From Nitrosospira multiformis (GTDB lineage: Bacteria; Pseudomonadota; Gammaproteobacteria; Burkholderiales; Nitrosomonadaceae): a DNA stretch of 64,000 bases. Both the position numbers and the translations under genes were made by a program. The notes under the pieces were generated by a model that worked only from the letters and a program-made list of their open reading frames with translations, was not told where the DNA came from and made no database searches. The stretch is from the NCBI RefSeq assembly GCF_900111585.1, contig NZ_FOHI01000005.1:62001-126000 (forward strand). Reading direction: 5' to 3'. This document shows, in pieces, positions 12,187 through 19,690 of the stretch; position 1 is the stretch's first letter; the number at the start of each line of letters is the position of its first letter.

Positions 12187-12891
12187 TCATGCAACTGTCT
12201 CGTTGAGTGTGCCAGCCAGCAGGCCGCGTAACGCATGCCATCGCCAGCCACCCTTGAGAATATGTTTCTGGTTGATCTCCAGTTCGATTCCGACGTAAGC
12301 GTTGGCAGGAAACCGGCGGCGCAGATAGGTGGGGAAACCATTTACCGCTCCGGTGTAGGGATAGTTGCGGCGTACCCTTAAATCGGGCACGTGCGCGGCA
12401 AGGCACGCGCGCCAGCGGGTGCACAGCTCTTGCTCAAGATGGCGTGAGGGATCATAAAGCAGTCCGATATCGGTATTGCGAACCTCCCCATTCAATTCGG
12501 GAGTGAAGCTGTGCGAGGAGATATGGATTACCCTCAGGCCGGAGCGAATGGCATCCGTGATGTTCGCTTCCACCCAAGTGCGATAGGGCAAGTAGTAGTT
12601 CTTCAGAATCTCCTGGCGGACAGCGGCGGGTGTGTTGCGCGTCGCTTCCGAATAAAGCCGAGGGTGACCGATCGAGCGGTTGAGGTCGATCAGCAGACGG
12701 CTTGTTGTGGCGGCAAACAATGGCGAGTGCAGTGCCATGGCAAGTTTTTTAGCCAAGCCCAAAGCGCCGCTGTCATAGCCCCGGTGGCTGTGCAACAAAT
12801 GCTCGTAGCCTTCGAACAGCGGACGGTAGCGCGGTGGAATGCGGTTACCGCCATGTTCACAACTGATTAAAAAATGAATATTCGTCGGCAT
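12187..12891 (-). CDS. N-formylglutamate amidohydrolase family protein
   Basis: 234 residues. The family is zinc-dependent and related to carboxypeptidases; known members hydrolyse N-formylglutamate. SCEHGGNRIPPRYRPLF (10-26) provides the first histidine motif, HRGYDSGALGLA the next loop, LLIDLNRS the conserved arginine-containing strand, and VIHISSHSFTP the second histidine motif; YVGIELEINQKHIL near the end holds the catalytic glutamate. There is no histidine-degradation operon nearby. It is the last gene of a three-gene unit with a GCS2-type amidoligase 21 bp upstream, so the substrate is more likely a product of that ligase than of histidine breakdown. That substrate is inference. Confidence 0.85.
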   Translation of the reverse strand: MPTNIHFLISCEHGGNRIPPRYRPLFEGYEHLLHSHRGYDSGALGLAKKLAMALHSPLFAATTSRLLIDLNRSIGHPRLYSEATRNTPAAVRQEILKNYYLPYRTWVEANITDAIRSGLRVIHISSHSFTPELNGEVRNTDIGLLYDPSRHLEQELCTRWRACLAAHVPDLRVRRNYPYTGAVNGFPTYLRRRFPANAYVGIELEINQKHILKGGWRWHALRGLLAGTLNETVA

Positions 12892-12912
12892 TTCGTTGAA
12901 GTCACGCGCAAC

Positions 12913-14151
12913 TCATTCCAGAAACATGCGGTCTTCGTCCAGGCAATCGCACAGCTCGCGGTAGACCGTCTCCAGCCGCCTCCTGCTGAAGTTGGAACCG
13001 ATCGCATTCAGGATGCGGCGCGCAAGCGGACCCTCTCTTAAAATGGTTTGCAGCGCTTCCCGGCAGCTTTTTCCTTGCCTGGGTTCGACCGGCATCTCAG
13101 ACTCGATGAGATGCCGCCACAGAATGCCAGCCGTGCAATCCGTACCCGGAAAACCCATCAGGCGAAGGTATTCCGCATCATCGATTACGGCTTGTTCTGC
13201 GTCATGGATGCAGTCATGCATGATCCTGACCAATGCTTCCGTGGCGATGGATTGCTGCTCGGCCAGCGGCGTGTAAGCTTCGCTGTAGAGCGCATGCACG
13301 ATATTGATCGCAGCAGCGGCGATGGCAAAGTCAGCACTCGAGCATTCCTGGGTATCGATTACGCGGATCTCGATAGCGTTACGGTCAAAGCGGGGAATTT
13401 CCCCATGCGCATTGAGCCACTCATGCTGTAGCATTTCTTCCGGATCGAGTGCTGCAATTTCGCGGTACATCGGTGCCAGAATTTTTGCTTCATAGGCGGC
13501 GGCACTGGAGACTGTTTCCGGGATTACCCGGCCGATTGTCGAGGGTACCTTCAGCTGGTGCTCGCAGTAATTAGCCATCCGGAAATCCAGGAAACCAGAG
13601 TACCCGCCTTCAGCGATTGGAGAGCTTGCCGCTATTGCCGGAAGAATGGGCAGCAACAGCCGCACCGCGGCGTGAAGCCGTGCAAATTCATCGTCGTTTG
13701 CGAAAGGCATGTTGAGGTGCATGCTTTGCAGGTTGGCCCAGCCGTGCCTTCTGCAGTCGAAGATATGGTCATAGGCCAGATAGATTTCCGCCTGCTCGTG
13801 CGGCCAGAGGCGGGTCTCCGTGCGGGGATTCATCCAGGGGTGCATGCCGGTCGGCATGAGCCGTGCGTTCATCGATTCGAGCACCTTGCTGATCCGCCGG
13901 ATTTCGCCCTGAAACGCGACAGACAGGGAGGAGATGTCTGGCTGCGGGTCGATGTTCTTCAGTTCGAGCAGATGCAGCACCAGCTCGTTCGACCATCCCA
14001 ACTGGCCGTTCCTGGCCTCGGATGCAAACACGCCGGTAAGCTTTCGCAGCAACTCGTCGGCAATGGGAACAACCGCCAGCGTCTTCTGGTCGACAATCAT
14101 GTACTCCAGTTCGATGCCATAACCTGCAAAGGCCGGCAACGCCGCAGTCAT
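12913..14151 (-). CDS. GCS2-family carboxylate-amine ligase (glutamate-cysteine ligase type 2 fold)
   Basis: 412 residues of the glutamine-synthetase-like GCS2 superfamily, which forms amide or peptide bonds with ATP. Visible motifs are YGIELEYMIVD (11-21, metal-binding glutamates), WSNELVLHLLELKN, a substrate loop with HPWMNPRTETRLWPHEQ, LQSMHLNMPFANDDEF, FDRNAIEIRVIDTQECSSAD and a C-terminal LETVYREL. Proteins like YbdK share the fold, but the exact substrate is unknown. The start overlaps the stop of the C39-like peptidase gene (ATGA), and the amidohydrolase gene follows after 21 bp. Genome-context surveys of amidoligases describe such sets, usually with an ATP-grasp partner, as peptide- or protein-modification systems. 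Here that partner is absent. Confidence 0.87.
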   Translation of the reverse strand: MTAALPAFAGYGIELEYMIVDQKTLAVVPIADELLRKLTGVFASEARNGQLGWSNELVLHLLELKNIDPQPDISSLSVAFQGEIRRISKVLESMNARLMPTGMHPWMNPRTETRLWPHEQAEIYLAYDHIFDCRRHGWANLQSMHLNMPFANDDEFARLHAAVRLLLPILPAIAASSPIAEGGYSGFLDFRMANYCEHQLKVPSTIGRVIPETVSSAAAYEAKILAPMYREIAALDPEEMLQHEWLNAHGEIPRFDRNAIEIRVIDTQECSSADFAIAAAAINIVHALYSEAYTPLAEQQSIATEALVRIMHDCIHDAEQAVIDDAEYLRLMGFPGTDCTAGILWRHLIESEMPVEPRQGKSCREALQTILREGPLARRILNAIGSNFSRRRLETVYRELCDCLDEDRMFLE

Positions 14152-14864
14152 GTTGCCTCACCCGGCCCGCCTCGTGTTCGGATGACGAGCAGATTGGCAT
14201 CATGTGTCACGATGCCCAGCAGCACGGAGCACAATACGCGGTCGATGTTGCTCCAGTACTCCTGGGCCGGACCGTATGGATCGGCGACAAGAACGGTACG
14301 CTTCTCGCGGTCATAACCGGTGAGTACGACAAAATGCCCGGCCGGAAAGCCACGCACATCGTCCGGTATGTCATTTGGCCCGTATTCCCGCGGAGCGCGG
14401 TAAAGGAAGGTGGAGCTCAGGCCAGTCAGGATAGGCAGGCCGCGACGTAAAAGGCCGTGGATGAGGGATTGTGAGAGGTCTGTGAGACGTAATCGTCCGC
14501 CTAAACGCAGAAACTCCAGATAGCCCTCCGTGGCCCGTCGCAATCTCGAGTCCGACTTGATCTCGCGTTGCCGTTGCAATCGTTCCGCGATGTCCATGCC
14601 TGATGTGAACCAGGTTGGATCGAAAACCATCAGGTTGTACGTATAGATGGTGGCATGGAAACCGTTTCGCAACGCGTCGCAACCTAAAAAAACGGCAAAG
14701 GTTCCTCCGCCGTTTTCAAGCTTGTGGGTGCGGTCAATGATGGTGTCCAGCCGTTCCGTCTTGCCGAGATAGCTGTAGATGGCATGCAGGCACGTTGGAC
14801 CACATGTCGTTTCATCGGGCTGCGCCAGTGTTTTGACGGGTAAGCGCAGTGTTGTTCTGAGCAT
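14148..14864 (-). CDS. C39-like cysteine peptidase
   Basis: 238 residues, papain-like fold of the C39-like group. The catalytic cysteine is C21 in QPDETTCGPTCLHAIYSYLG, the histidine is in FPAGHFVVLTGYD, and the aspartate follows in VLVADPYGPAQEYW. Unlike bacteriocin exporters there is no membrane or ATPase domain, and there is no signal peptide, so it should act in the cytoplasm. It heads the three-gene unit with overlapping start and stop codons, which means it is made together with the amidoligase. A role in trimming or releasing the ligase product or target is inferred from context only. Confidence 0.82.
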   Translation of the reverse strand: MLRTTLRLPVKTLAQPDETTCGPTCLHAIYSYLGKTERLDTIIDRTHKLENGGGTFAVFLGCDALRNGFHATIYTYNLMVFDPTWFTSGMDIAERLQRQREIKSDSRLRRATEGYLEFLRLGGRLRLTDLSQSLIHGLLRRGLPILTGLSSTFLYRAPREYGPNDIPDDVRGFPAGHFVVLTGYDREKRTVLVADPYGPAQEYWSNIDRVLCSVLLGIVTHDANLLVIRTRGGPGEAT

Positions 14865-14998
14865 GGCAAAATGGGCGGCAAAGGGCGCATGTCAAGACAG
14901 CATCGCTGTAGCGTAAAGAACATGGGGAACATAGAAGCATGGGGATGAGCCATGAGGCTGTTCCCCGGTCGGGCTTGTTCGAAGTCCCCCTATAAAGA

Positions 14999-15049
14999 TT
15001 AGGTGATGCGCTGGAAGAAATCCAGTTCGTAGAGCATGCTCATCAGGCG
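14999..15049 (-). pseudogene. Possible C-terminal remnant of a lost gene upstream of the peptidase
   Basis: On the minus strand a frame ending at TAA (14999-15001) reads RARLMSMLYELDFFQRIT. It looks like a normal protein tail, but upstream it runs straight into the palindromic repeat at 15052 and no body of a gene is left. In related clusters an ATP-grasp ligase gene sits at exactly this place, so this could be the tail of one, cut by the repeat. The evidence is a single short frame and could be chance. Confidence 0.25.
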
Positions 15050-15051
15050 CG

Positions 15052-15085
15052 CTCTCCGCTGGGGGAGAGGAATGGGGAGAGGGTG
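15052..15085. repeat. Dispersed palindromic repeat, copy 1
   Basis: CTCTCC (15052-15057) and GGAGAG (15064-15069) form a small hairpin, followed by AATGGGGAGAGGG. The same arrangement, a CTCTCC/GGAGAG hairpin followed by ATGGGGAGAGGG, recurs at 58755-58795. It belongs to the short GGGGAGAGGG repeats common between genes in many proteobacteria. The rest of the 463 bp from 14865 to 15327 shows no gene. Confidence 0.6.
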
Positions 15086-15327
15086 GCATTCGAAGAATCG
15101 AACGCTTTTCAGCACAGATTTGTCGAAACGTCGGTTTCTAGTTAGGGGACCCGCTCTGGCAGAAGGCACCGAGCTGGCGCCGATCTCGATCTCTCCGCGC
15201 CTGGCCTTTTAGGCAAGCCAGACGCCCAGCGAGACAACCCAGAACAGACGGCAGAGCCGATAATAAGAAGATGACCCTCAGTCATTTTGCCTTGCCACTT
15301 CTCCAGAGGACCTCATTTGCCTATCAG

Positions 15328-17955
15328 TTAGGCGGCTGCCGCCTGCTTCTGAACCCAGAACAGATACATGGTATTGAACGTGTCAGGGTTCTCGGTTTCG
15401 AATATGTGCCAGTGATCGAGATCAGTTTGAGGGACATCATCCGGAAAGCGTTGCCGATACTGGTTAGCCGTGCTTCGCCCAATCGAAAACCCGAGGAATA
15501 TCAAACCAAGCTCCCGAAGATCTTCCTTGATGTGGGGAAGAGTATAACGATTCTCCTGGACATGGAATAGCATGTCGCGACACTCGCTCAAAGTATAGAA
15601 ATCCCTTGCGGATAAAACTTGACGAAATGTGTCTGCATTTTCTAGCGACATCATCTCCTGACGGCACGTCCTGATGTCTTCGGCAGTAGGCTTATATCCT
15701 TTTTGAGCAATAAAACGTTGGGCAAAAGCCAGGTTCGACCGTGCGTACTCGCTATACAGACCGATGCGCATGAAGCCGCCGGGCCGGAGTAAGGAAAGCA
15801 GCTTACGCCACCCGAGGAGAGGGTCGGAAAGATGGTGTAGTACGCCAACTGCTTCGATCACGTCGAAGAGTTTGCTACCTCTCGCCGCTATGCTTTCAGA
15901 ATCGAGGTTCAGGATGTCTGCCTGCGCGTATTCGATATTCCGTACGCACAACTCATCAGTCTTCCTTTTAGCATAACAGAGTGATCTTGAACTAAGATCG
16001 ACAGCAAGAACATTTGCGTTCTTGAATCGCTGTGCGGCGGCAATGGCATGCCGGCCGGTTCCGCATCCCGCGACCAAAACCTTGATGGCGTCTTTGACCC
16101 TTTCATTCCGATGCTCAGGACTGGCAGCCGGTTCAAATCGGGCGTAAGGGAAGAGGTCACTCAGGTAGCGGTCCACTGATTCGCTACCGGCCCGTAACGG
16201 AAGTTTGATCCACCTCGGGTAAGGATTCTCTTCATACTGATTACGCACGCGGCATGAAGTATCGTCTACGATGGCTGTCAAGGAAGGAAGGTGGGACAGG
16301 CTTCGCTCTTCCTTCAGCGGCTCTTGTACCTGTTGCAAGAGCAATGCTGCTATCGAGTCAGGCCAGGAATGGTCGAGAAGTCGTTCAGCAAATGGTAACG
16401 AACGGAGCGGAAAATAAGCTGCCGCCCCTGCAAGCGATAGCGGATGGATGGTTCTGTTGGCTTGCCGTGCAGCAGCGACTTGTGCCTTCAACCTCTGCGC
16501 CTGCTCATATTCCTCTGCCGAATATGAGAAAACGTATTCATTGATGAAGCATTGCCGCGCCAGTGAGCACCAAAATAAGTCCTCTTCCTCCTGCCACTCC
16601 CGACCATCTCCTCGTACCTTGCCGGCCACATTTTCTTCGGCTATGGCTATTTGTAGCAGCCAATAGCGCAGCGACGTCAAAAACTGTTCAAGTTCAATAT
16701 CGCAAACAGGAGTATTTTCCATCAAAGCCCGCAACAGCTCATTATTGAACACTGCAGCAAAGCCGGCTTTACTCGATTCAAATTTACCAAAAAGCTCCTG
16801 ACACGACATCCCGACAGCATGCGCTGTCTTCATTCCGTCGAGATGCTCACGTATGGCACAGTCTCTCTTGATCAGCGAAACAGCGGGGTTTCCAAAATCG
16901 TCTGGCTGGCCCCATGTTTCAGATATAGCTCGAACAAGGAGAGCATGAAGGCGAGGTATGTCATGATCACAGTAAACATTCGCGATGCAATCTGTAAAAC
17001 TCCTCTTTATATCGGAGTCATCGCAAAGTTCAAGAGCGTGCCAGTAATCGATTACGGCATCGTCAGCCTTATGTTGTTGCCACAGCACGTATGCACGATT
17101 GCTATAGGCCCGCGCATATCCAAGGTTCAGCTCAATAGCCCGGCTATAACCGGCTACTGCTTCATCCAATCTCCCCAGTTCACGCAGCACGTTTCCCAGA
17201 TTGTTGTATGCCTCCGGAAACCGCGGTTTGTACAGGATGGCTTTTTCAAAACTTGATACTGCCTCTTCAAATTTACTTTGTTCCACGAGGACATTTCCCA
17301 GATTGTTGAATGCCTCTGCAGAATCTGGCTTCAACAGGAGTACCTTGCGGAAGCTTGATACGGCATCTTCGAGATTCCCCTGCTCTCTATGTACGATACC
17401 GATATTACAGTGAATCTCCGCAAGCTGAGGCTGGATACTGAGAGCCTTTCGATAATTGATCATCGCGTCATCCAGCCTACCCTGCTCCCTAAGAGCGTTT
17501 CCAAGATTGCCATAGGCCTCGGCAAAACGAGGCTCAAGTTTCACGGCAGTCCGGTAAGAGGCGATTGCATCATCCAATTTTCCTTGTTGCCGGAGCGTGT
17601 TACCGAGATTGTTATGCGCCTCAACATAGTTGGGCTCGAACTTCAAGGCTCTCCTGATGAGTTCGATGCCGATATCGATCCTGCCTGCATCCCGGGCCAG
17701 GAGCCCCAGGAAATGCAGTGCATCGGGCTGATTCGGATCAAGCTGAAGTATGGGTTGATAAATTGCTTCCGCTTGAGACAAATTTCCCCTCTTGTGATGC
17801 TCGACTGCGGCTTGAAGGTACTGCAGGATGGATTGTCGTGAAGACGTGCGGGCCAGTGAGTCTGCAGGGTCCGCTTCCGCGTTCCTTTCGCAGCAGTGCT
17901 TGTATTTCTTTCCACTCCCACACGGGCAGGGCTCATTCCGTCCAATCTTTTTCAT
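15328..17955 (-). CDS. SEC-C / TPR / SAM-dependent methyltransferase multidomain protein
   Basis: 875 residues. Residues 5-22 are a SEC-C zinc motif (NEPCPCGSGKKYKHCC). Residues about 42-310 are tandem tetratricopeptide repeats, roughly eight, with the recurring pattern AYxNLGNxLRxQGxLDDAI. A helical linker of unknown fold covers about 320-600. Residues about 620-790 are a class I methyltransferase: motif I VLVAGCGTGRHA (626-637), LAVDLS, AQADILNL and the LLRPGGFMRIGLYS loop. TPR-methyltransferase fusions are found in environmental proteobacteria, often with protein targets, but the target here is unknown. SEC-C motifs elsewhere bind SecB or ribosomes, suggesting action on nascent or exported proteins; that is inference. 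No signal peptide, so cytoplasmic. Confidence 0.85.
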   Translation of the reverse strand: MKKIGRNEPCPCGSGKKYKHCCERNAEADPADSLARTSSRQSILQYLQAAVEHHKRGNLSQAEAIYQPILQLDPNQPDALHFLGLLARDAGRIDIGIELIRRALKFEPNYVEAHNNLGNTLRQQGKLDDAIASYRTAVKLEPRFAEAYGNLGNALREQGRLDDAMINYRKALSIQPQLAEIHCNIGIVHREQGNLEDAVSSFRKVLLLKPDSAEAFNNLGNVLVEQSKFEEAVSSFEKAILYKPRFPEAYNNLGNVLRELGRLDEAVAGYSRAIELNLGYARAYSNRAYVLWQQHKADDAVIDYWHALELCDDSDIKRSFTDCIANVYCDHDIPRLHALLVRAISETWGQPDDFGNPAVSLIKRDCAIREHLDGMKTAHAVGMSCQELFGKFESSKAGFAAVFNNELLRALMENTPVCDIELEQFLTSLRYWLLQIAIAEENVAGKVRGDGREWQEEEDLFWCSLARQCFINEYVFSYSAEEYEQAQRLKAQVAAARQANRTIHPLSLAGAAAYFPLRSLPFAERLLDHSWPDSIAALLLQQVQEPLKEERSLSHLPSLTAIVDDTSCRVRNQYEENPYPRWIKLPLRAGSESVDRYLSDLFPYARFEPAASPEHRNERVKDAIKVLVAGCGTGRHAIAAAQRFKNANVLAVDLSSRSLCYAKRKTDELCVRNIEYAQADILNLDSESIAARGSKLFDVIEAVGVLHHLSDPLLGWRKLLSLLRPGGFMRIGLYSEYARSNLAFAQRFIAQKGYKPTAEDIRTCRQEMMSLENADTFRQVLSARDFYTLSECRDMLFHVQENRYTLPHIKEDLRELGLIFLGFSIGRSTANQYRQRFPDDVPQTDLDHWHIFETENPDTFNTMYLFWVQKQAAAA

Positions 17956-18061: not shown

Positions 18062-19690
18062 TCATCTTTCATCCAGCAACCGCTCCAGTTTCTTCCAGGC
18101 GTTATCCCCGCTGTCAAAGCCTTCTTTCTCATTGACGAACTCTACGGTGTAAGCCCGCTCCTGCGGCGCCAGCACTTCCTCTTTTTCCTGTAACAGTTTC
18201 AATACGCCCAGATCAGCTTCGGAGGCATCGCTTGATTCGCTTTGCCGTTTTACGATACGGCTTTGCATTGTCTCGGAGGACGCTTTCAGCGATGCAATCA
18301 CAAACGGCACCGATAGTTCATTTGCCAGCATTCGGAAATGCTCGCGCTCTTCCCGTTTCAGAAAGGCGGCATCCACGATTACCGGAAAGCCCGCGGCCAG
18401 CAGTTCTCGCGCCAAATCATGCAGTCGCGCATACGTTCGCACCGTAGCCTCCGCATGATAAATGCCCTCTCTCTGCGAGCGGCTGTCTGCCAACGCCGCC
18501 AATCCGAATAAACGCTTGCGCTCCACATCCGATCGTATGCGTATGGCTTGCAGCCTTTCCAGTGCTGCCTGTGCAAAAGTCGTTTTGCCCGATCCCGGCA
18601 AACCGCGGGTAATCACTAGCGCGGGCTGCTGCCGGGCAAGGCATGCTGTAGCGAGATCAAGAAAACTGCTGCAGGATGCCAGGGCGGCTGCCTTGTCCCG
18701 TTTGGGAAGGTTGCCCTGGCCGGCGCGAACGGCGCTGACCATCGCACGCACTGCGGCACGATAGGCGAGATAGAAACGAAGCAAGGGCAGGCCCCCATAA
18801 TCACCCGTAATTTCCAGATAGGCATTGAGGAAGCGATAGGCAAGTTCAGACTGCTGGCGATGCAGCAGGTCCATGACGGTAAAGGCGACTTCGTTCATTA
18901 CATCGATCCAGCGTAGCGGGGGACTGAACTCGATACAATCGAAAGGAACAGGTCGTCCACGAATCAGCGCAATATTGCCCAGATGCAGGTCACCATGACA
19001 TTCGCGCACAAAACCCCCGGCAAGCCGCCGTTCCAGATGCTCCTTGCGTACGCCATACTCAGTCTCGATCGCCCCGCGCAATCCGGCCACACGGGCTTCA
19101 TTTTCAGTGCCAGCCAACGCTGCTTGTAATTGCTCGAGAGTCTGCAATACTGTCGCATGTGTCGCAGCGGCTGACCCAAGCCCGGCCGCAGGTTCAGCCG
19201 AGGGCAGAGCCTCATGAAAATGCGCGATCGTTGCCGCCAGGCTATCCATATGCTCCGGGAGAATCCTGCCGTGCTCGGCCAGCCTGTCCAGTTGTTGGGA
19301 AGCAGGGAAGCGGCGCATTTTCACTGCATATTCGATAGCCGGTTCAGCACTGATTTCCGGCATTTCAGCCGTACCGCCGAGGGGAATGACATCCAGATAG
19401 AGTTGGGGTGCAAGGCGCCGGTTGAGCCGCAACTCTTCCTCACAATAATGGCGGCGTGATGACAAATCCGTAAAGTCGAGGAAACCCAGATCGACCGATT
19501 TCTTTATTTTGTAGGCATAGCGTCCCGCCAGCAGTACCCAGGAAATATGCGTTTCCACTACCCGCACCCGTTTTACCGGGTGGGGATAGCGGCGAGGATC
19601 CAGCAAGGCAGTGATTAATCTGCCTTGAACATCTCCATCAGCCTGCGGGATATCGAGCGGCCTCTTCGCTTGGGTGATTGAATCTTTCAT
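18062..19690 (-). CDS. Aminoglycoside-phosphotransferase-like / P-loop kinase fusion protein
   Basis: 542 residues. The N-terminal half (about 45-330) is a phosphotransferase (APH/choline-kinase-like) domain with YAYKIKKSVDLGFLDF for ATP-site lysines and the catalytic loop CHGDLHLGNIAL followed by PFDCIEFSPPLRWIDV. The C-terminal half is a zeta-toxin/AAA-like P-loop kinase with Walker A GLPGSGKTT (363-371) and IRSDVERKRLFG. This two-domain architecture is widespread in proteobacteria and usually carries the generic label of aminoglycoside phosphotransferase/ATP-binding protein; no substrate has been shown, and antibiotic resistance should not be assumed. The DHH phosphoesterase gene ends 61 bp upstream on the same strand, so they may be co-expressed. 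Confidence 0.85.
   Translation of the reverse strand: MKDSITQAKRPLDIPQADGDVQGRLITALLDPRRYPHPVKRVRVVETHISWVLLAGRYAYKIKKSVDLGFLDFTDLSSRRHYCEEELRLNRRLAPQLYLDVIPLGGTAEMPEISAEPAIEYAVKMRRFPASQQLDRLAEHGRILPEHMDSLAATIAHFHEALPSAEPAAGLGSAAATHATVLQTLEQLQAALAGTENEARVAGLRGAIETEYGVRKEHLERRLAGGFVRECHGDLHLGNIALIRGRPVPFDCIEFSPPLRWIDVMNEVAFTVMDLLHRQQSELAYRFLNAYLEITGDYGGLPLLRFYLAYRAAVRAMVSAVRAGQGNLPKRDKAAALASCSSFLDLATACLARQQPALVITRGLPGSGKTTFAQAALERLQAIRIRSDVERKRLFGLAALADSRSQREGIYHAEATVRTYARLHDLARELLAAGFPVIVDAAFLKREEREHFRMLANELSVPFVIASLKASSETMQSRIVKRQSESSDASEADLGVLKLLQEKEEVLAPQERAYTVEFVNEKEGFDSGDNAWKKLERLLDER

Follow-up and report, generated by a model that had tools for sequence, protein, structure and literature searches.

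A predicted amidoligase gene set widespread in bacteria has its ATP-grasp ligase encoded in trans in Nitrosospira

Three closely packed genes in Nitrosospira multiformis raise the question of where the ATP-grasp ligase that normally accompanies such genes is to be found. The window, by which we mean the whole stretch of 64,000 nucleotides analysed here, carries on its minus strand, as first gene of the operon, a gene for a C39-like cysteine peptidase or transferase (14148–14864, 238 amino acids (aa); PF13529 Peptidase_C39_2, 2.1e-12), followed by genes for a GCS2-fold carboxylate–amine ligase (12913–14151, 412 aa; PF04107, 2.8e-21) and a zinc hydrolase resembling N-formylglutamate amidohydrolase, here termed FGase (12187–12891, 234 aa; PF05013, 2.5e-24). 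All three genes are intact, with Pfam matches above the cut-offs. The stop end of the C39-like open reading frame (ORF) overlaps the GCS2 ORF by 4 bp, 21 bp separate GCS2 from FGase, and no ATP-grasp gene adjoins the trio in the window, all in keeping with the first-pass annotation, which had described an overlapping or nearly overlapping trio lacking this partner. On one side the trio is flanked by nicotinate phosphoribosyltransferase and nicotinamidase genes (NAD salvage) and on the other by a gene for a SEC-C/TPR/methyltransferase protein.

The family-conserved residues, including those expected to be catalytic, are retained in the trio proteins of the window. In the C39-like protein these are Gln15, Cys21, His177 and Asp195, which are invariant across 41 homologues; in GCS2, the GxExE motif (E14 and E16) and further acidic and histidine residues are invariant in 11 diverse homologues; and in FGase, which is related to the solved structure 2odf (E 2e-16), His36, Arg37, His123, His127, Glu203 and Glu205 are invariant in ten homologues, in which Glu12 and His13 are nearly so. 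The predicted structure of the C39-like protein (pLDDT 92.9) has as its nearest solved folds the peptidase domains of PCAT1 and ComA and the phytochelatin synthase Alr0975, all equally close (Z about 16). A role as a bacteriocin-processing peptidase of the PCAT/ComA kind was nevertheless rejected for this stand-alone protein of 238 aa, which has no ABC domain, no clear transmembrane segment and no apparent signal-like N terminus; the conserved gene set around it contains no exporter, although the fold is still common to PCAT/ComA.

The first-pass annotation had left three possibilities for the ligase, namely that the system works without it, that it is encoded elsewhere or that it was lost, and had proposed a search of the rest of the genome for a RimK-like ligase. 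That search proved productive. RimK-domain matches lie at five places in the genome, one of which is an intact gene encoding an ATP-grasp protein with an RLAN domain (contig C20, 64874–66440, 521 aa; RLAN 2.2e-43, RimK 1.3e-12), the trio itself being on contig C13. The ATP-grasp partner of the trio is not lost; it is encoded elsewhere in the same genome, and of the three possibilities it is the second that stands and the loss that falls away, with the rider that the gene in trans may be a replacement copy. Among the other places, L002 was rejected as the partner, as a probable GshB gene behind GshA, as was L005, which by sequence and position is Ddl-like in a mur/fts cluster; the matches at L003 and L004 fall within two long ORFs (750 aa and 863 aa). 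In its structural model (pLDDT 90.2), the ATP-grasp part of the RLAN protein comes nearest to ArgX/LysX (Z 28.4) and then RimK (Z 27). Hydropathy gave no clear transmembrane segment in the trio proteins or in the RLAN–ATP-grasp protein, and all four look cytoplasmic.

Directly upstream of the RLAN–ATP-grasp gene lies an unrelated gene for a membrane protein of unknown family (MEM496; L006:8437–9927, minus strand) with one transmembrane segment by hydropathy, the stop of which here overlaps the ATP-grasp ATG. MEM496 occupies this position in every RLAN-bearing Nitrosospira genome examined except G004, and in G005 it is present without RLAN.

A scan of genome_contigs (one genome per species, 84,980 species) yielded the best 80 relatives of the ATP-grasp protein, and their loci show where such a gene usually sits. 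In 64 of these 80 nearest-relative loci, the order on one strand is C39, RLAN–ATP-grasp, GCS2, and in 49 of the 80 FGase is the fourth gene; in one locus C39 is placed last. The statement that such sets normally include an ATP-grasp ligase is well founded, although the first-pass annotation had suggested looking for the gene on the SEC-C side of the peptidase, whereas the operons carry it on the GCS2 side, flanked by the peptidase and GCS2 genes. This order extends from Thiobacillus and Nitrosomonas to Planctomycetota; those of the 80 loci that depart from it belong to Nitrosospira, to a clade of Gallionella type and to a single Nitrosomonas, or lie on a few contigs that are short or odd. In a genome from another family of the same order (G050), C39, RLAN, GCS2 and FGase are contiguous, with overlaps at the C39/RLAN and GCS2/FGase junctions. 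Among environmental bacteria the four-gene set occurs widely, in Pseudomonadota, Planctomycetota, Thermodesulfobacteriota and Nitrospirota, in partial form in Fibrobacterota and reordered in Chlamydiota, and no fifth gene recurs beside the four across phyla in the relatives' loci. In a class-wide sample of 370 genomes, all 16 that are positive for C39 also have RLAN, compared with 91 of 370 overall (hypergeometric 6e-11, kinship ignored); the two genes are adjacent in 15 of the 16, the genome of the window being the sole split one.

Variants of the operon were also seen. The Nitrosomonas operons at L098, L100, L101, L105 and L109 have no FGase beside GCS2, and at L100 an FGase gene turns up some 5 kb further downstream, so that this gene, too, is subject to relocation. 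The Gallionella-type loci (L097, L099, L103, L104, L108, L115 and L129) carry a lone RLAN–ATP-grasp gene, and a genome-wide search of these RLAN-only genomes, mostly metagenome-assembled genomes (MAGs), did not find GCS2.

GCS2 and FGase carry the names of glutathione synthesis and histidine degradation, and genes of those kinds might simply have been mistaken for a system. We consider this very improbable. No hut or glutathione gene was found beside the trio among the neighbours scanned, as had been noted at the outset; on contig C10 the genome has a separate GshA gene (PF08886, 6e-204), behind which lies a RimK-domain gene that is probably GshB; and GCS2 falls far under the cut-offs of the curated NCBIfam models for GshA and YbdK (at best 47 bits against a cut-off of 371, and 46.6 against 176.4). 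FGase was rejected as a histidine-degradation enzyme, having no NCBIfam match at 0.001, and the identical gene order in distant phyla also argues against this reading.

Upstream of the peptidase gene, a short tail-like frame (14999–15049) had been read as what is left of an ATP-grasp gene. A short ORF does exist there, the frame being the end of a 56-codon ORF with a GTG start (14999–15169), but this ORF has no Pfam match, matches neither the RLAN–ATP-grasp protein nor the homologue sets, and is disrupted by indels in the close relatives G003 and G008. These two genomes are without the SEC-C gene, and their DNA similarity to the window ends at about position 15102, which indicates that the SEC-C gene is an insertion and that the ORF spans its edge. 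On this comparison the ORF is a non-conserved spacer crossing the insertion boundary. In the operons, moreover, the ATP-grasp gene sits downstream of C39, not upstream, and that one was lost here with the frame as its last trace is scarcely credible. The palindrome at 15050–15070, at which the frame begins and which lies inside the longer ORF, occurs once in the whole genome, which rules out a repeat dispersed over the genome or the end of a mobile element.

The SEC-C/TPR/methyltransferase gene itself (15328–17955, minus strand) is part of an insertion of about 2.7 kb found in G000 and G007, with a breakpoint near 15102, and absent at the equivalent site in G003 (L066) and G008 (L067). Beyond it, at 18062–19690 on the minus strand, is a gene for an APH-like kinase domain fused to an AAA_33 P-loop kinase domain, conserved beside the trio within the genus.

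We then compared 23 genomes of the genus (Nitrosospira according to records L084 and L085). The trio is intact in eight of them, the genome of the window and seven others, and, leaving aside the SEC-C gene, it has the same neighbours in all but G019 and G020, where genes intervene on the nicotinate side: directly behind FGase, and ahead of the nicotinate gene, stands a pair of large genes encoding 633 aa and 807 aa (L069:11244–15628 in G019 and L068:3732–8114 in G020). All eight genomes have an intact RLAN gene, always at a separate locus and mostly behind MEM496. Two observations had been named beforehand as speaking against a missing partner: the tail frame indeed matched nothing, whereas no genome examined had the intact trio without RLAN. 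RLAN is also found without an intact trio in six Nitrosospira genomes, with no C39 or GCS2 matches in four (G004, G006, G009 and G010) and with C39 and only a stub of GCS2 in two (G015 and G022); in G016, GCS2 and RLAN are both fragmented. In-frame stops occur in some RLAN matches and, in those read, lie upstream of the conserved start. The co-occurrence of trio and RLAN within the genus has a hypergeometric probability of 0.006, with kinship ignored and the genomes few and related. The dependence is one-sided: the trio is never found without RLAN, and RLAN is found without the trio. Because the ATP-grasp gene persists where the trio is gone, in the four genomes without C39 or GCS2 and in the Gallionella-type genomes, it may serve some independent function.

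This persistence, the position of the Nitrosospira RLAN gene next to MEM496 and an RLAN tree unlike that of the trio would also fit a trio that is self-sufficient, with GCS2 as the only ligase needed and the RLAN–ATP-grasp protein serving another process. We think this unlikely, given that no genome examined, in Nitrosospira or in the class sample, has an intact trio without RLAN and that in other organisms the RLAN gene is inserted between those for C39 and GCS2. The reading that we prefer, and hold to be probable, is that the trio is three quarters of the conserved four-gene amidoligase set and that this cytoplasmic cassette of two ligases and two hydrolases works with an ATP-grasp enzyme encoded elsewhere. 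Joint action of the products in one pathway was assessed through co-occurrence and gene order.

How the split arose is suggested by phylogeny. Trees of C39, of GCS2 and of the two concatenated group Nitrosospira with the operons of Nitrosomonas (support 99–100), whereas the ATP-grasp tree places Nitrosospira with L093 (support 99/94; the row was identified as L093 from an earlier tree). The RLAN data reject a grouping of Nitrosospira with Nitrosomonas (AU test, p = 0.013; 0.036 in a quicker tree), and C39 plus GCS2, which unite the two (100), reject Nitrosospira with L093 (p = 0.003); these p values are optimistic, the groups having been chosen partly after a tree was viewed, and L093 is a single MAG. 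Since the trees conflict, the trans ATP-grasp gene was possibly acquired separately, and replacement in trans is favoured: with moderate support, the data suggest that the trio was inherited with the Nitrosomonas operon and that the ATP-grasp gene is of other ancestry, rather than having simply moved. Tentatively, then, in an ancestor of Nitrosospira the operon ATP-grasp gene may have been replaced by a homologue from another lineage, encoded in trans and making a product useful alone, on which the trio acts as a dispensable second module. If true, this would explain why the trio never occurs without the ligase while the ligase occurs without the trio. The Nitrosospira RLAN genes also form one clade nested within operon-borne RLAN genes (100%), as would be expected if the ATP-grasp gene had been translocated out of the operon with no replacement; the conflict just described counts against such a move, which would refine the preferred reading rather than compete with it and which we regard as conceivable but doubtful.

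Compared with the RLAN (PF14401) plus RimK operons of Thiobacillus, Nitrosomonas, Aromatoleum and Planctomycetota (among L086–L163), the genome of the window has the same four subfamilies with conserved active sites, and its three genes are in the same order. What sets it apart is the ATP-grasp gene, which neighbours a membrane-protein gene on a different contig and probably has another ancestry. All four subfamilies are thus present with their conserved family residues, and in none of the eight trio-bearing Nitrosospira genomes are they contiguous in one operon; theirs is a split variant. In a second RLAN clade the partner of the ATP-grasp gene is a GNAT–DUF3335 fusion (for example at L169, L170, L183 and L186), again with a C39-like enzyme followed by RLAN–ATP-grasp. 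These pairs differ in their GNAT acetyltransferase domain, in showing neither GCS2 nor FGase within the short flanks and in an RLAN protein only 41–45% identical. Given this pairing, the shared core looks to be the C39-like enzyme and RLAN, with GCS2 plus FGase, or GNAT, as alternative additions. The cassette for synthesis of N-acetylglutaminylglutamine amide (NAGGN), for its part, combines a GNAT/ATP-grasp fusion, an asparagine-synthase-like amidotransferase and an M42 peptidase; beside the four genes here, as noted above, no additional family is recurrent across phyla.

The LysX/ArgX–LysW and RimK–RpsF ligases share the ATP-grasp fold and give the best solved-structure matches (Z 26–28), but the enzyme here has an extra N-terminal RLAN domain and other partner enzymes, and no LysW or RpsF substrate was identified. 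The glutathione and phytochelatin pathway uses the same enzyme folds (a GCS2-fold GCL, the ATP-grasp GshB and the papain-fold phytochelatin synthase), an analogy only, given the sub-threshold GCS2 and the separate glutathione pathway noted above. Our literature search found no paper describing the RLAN set and no tested function for the four-gene set; Iyer et al. (2009) reportedly cover RLAN and amidoligase neighbourhoods.

The substrate of ArgX and LysX is a carrier protein, whose carboxylate they join to an amino acid. The best reading of the cassette is a role in peptide synthesis or conjugation. Gene content, gene order, conservation, the partner in trans and the conserved active-site residues are observed; from there we infer the chemistry, step order and product as follows. 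The two ATP-dependent ligases would build a short amide-linked peptide stepwise, or add amino acids to the end of a carrier or protein. The RLAN enzyme, in the fashion of LysX, ArgX and RimK, would activate a carboxylate, C-terminal or in a side chain, as an acyl phosphate for attack by an amino acid; GCS2 would catalyse formation of a second amide, with a glutamate-type carboxylate as its probable site; the C39-like enzyme would cleave or transfer the peptide through an acyl-cysteine; and FGase would take off an N-acyl (glutamyl-type) group. Linked ligases that act in succession have been described before (PMC4431377).

The case is an ordinary but informative one: the predicted amidoligase set is widespread, and this genus encodes its ATP-grasp enzyme in trans. 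It also carries a caution, that an operon that looks incomplete can still belong to a complete system. The Nitrosospira split amounts to a natural dissection of the four-gene set, and the one-sided dependence suggests that the ATP-grasp product comes first and that the trio acts afterwards.
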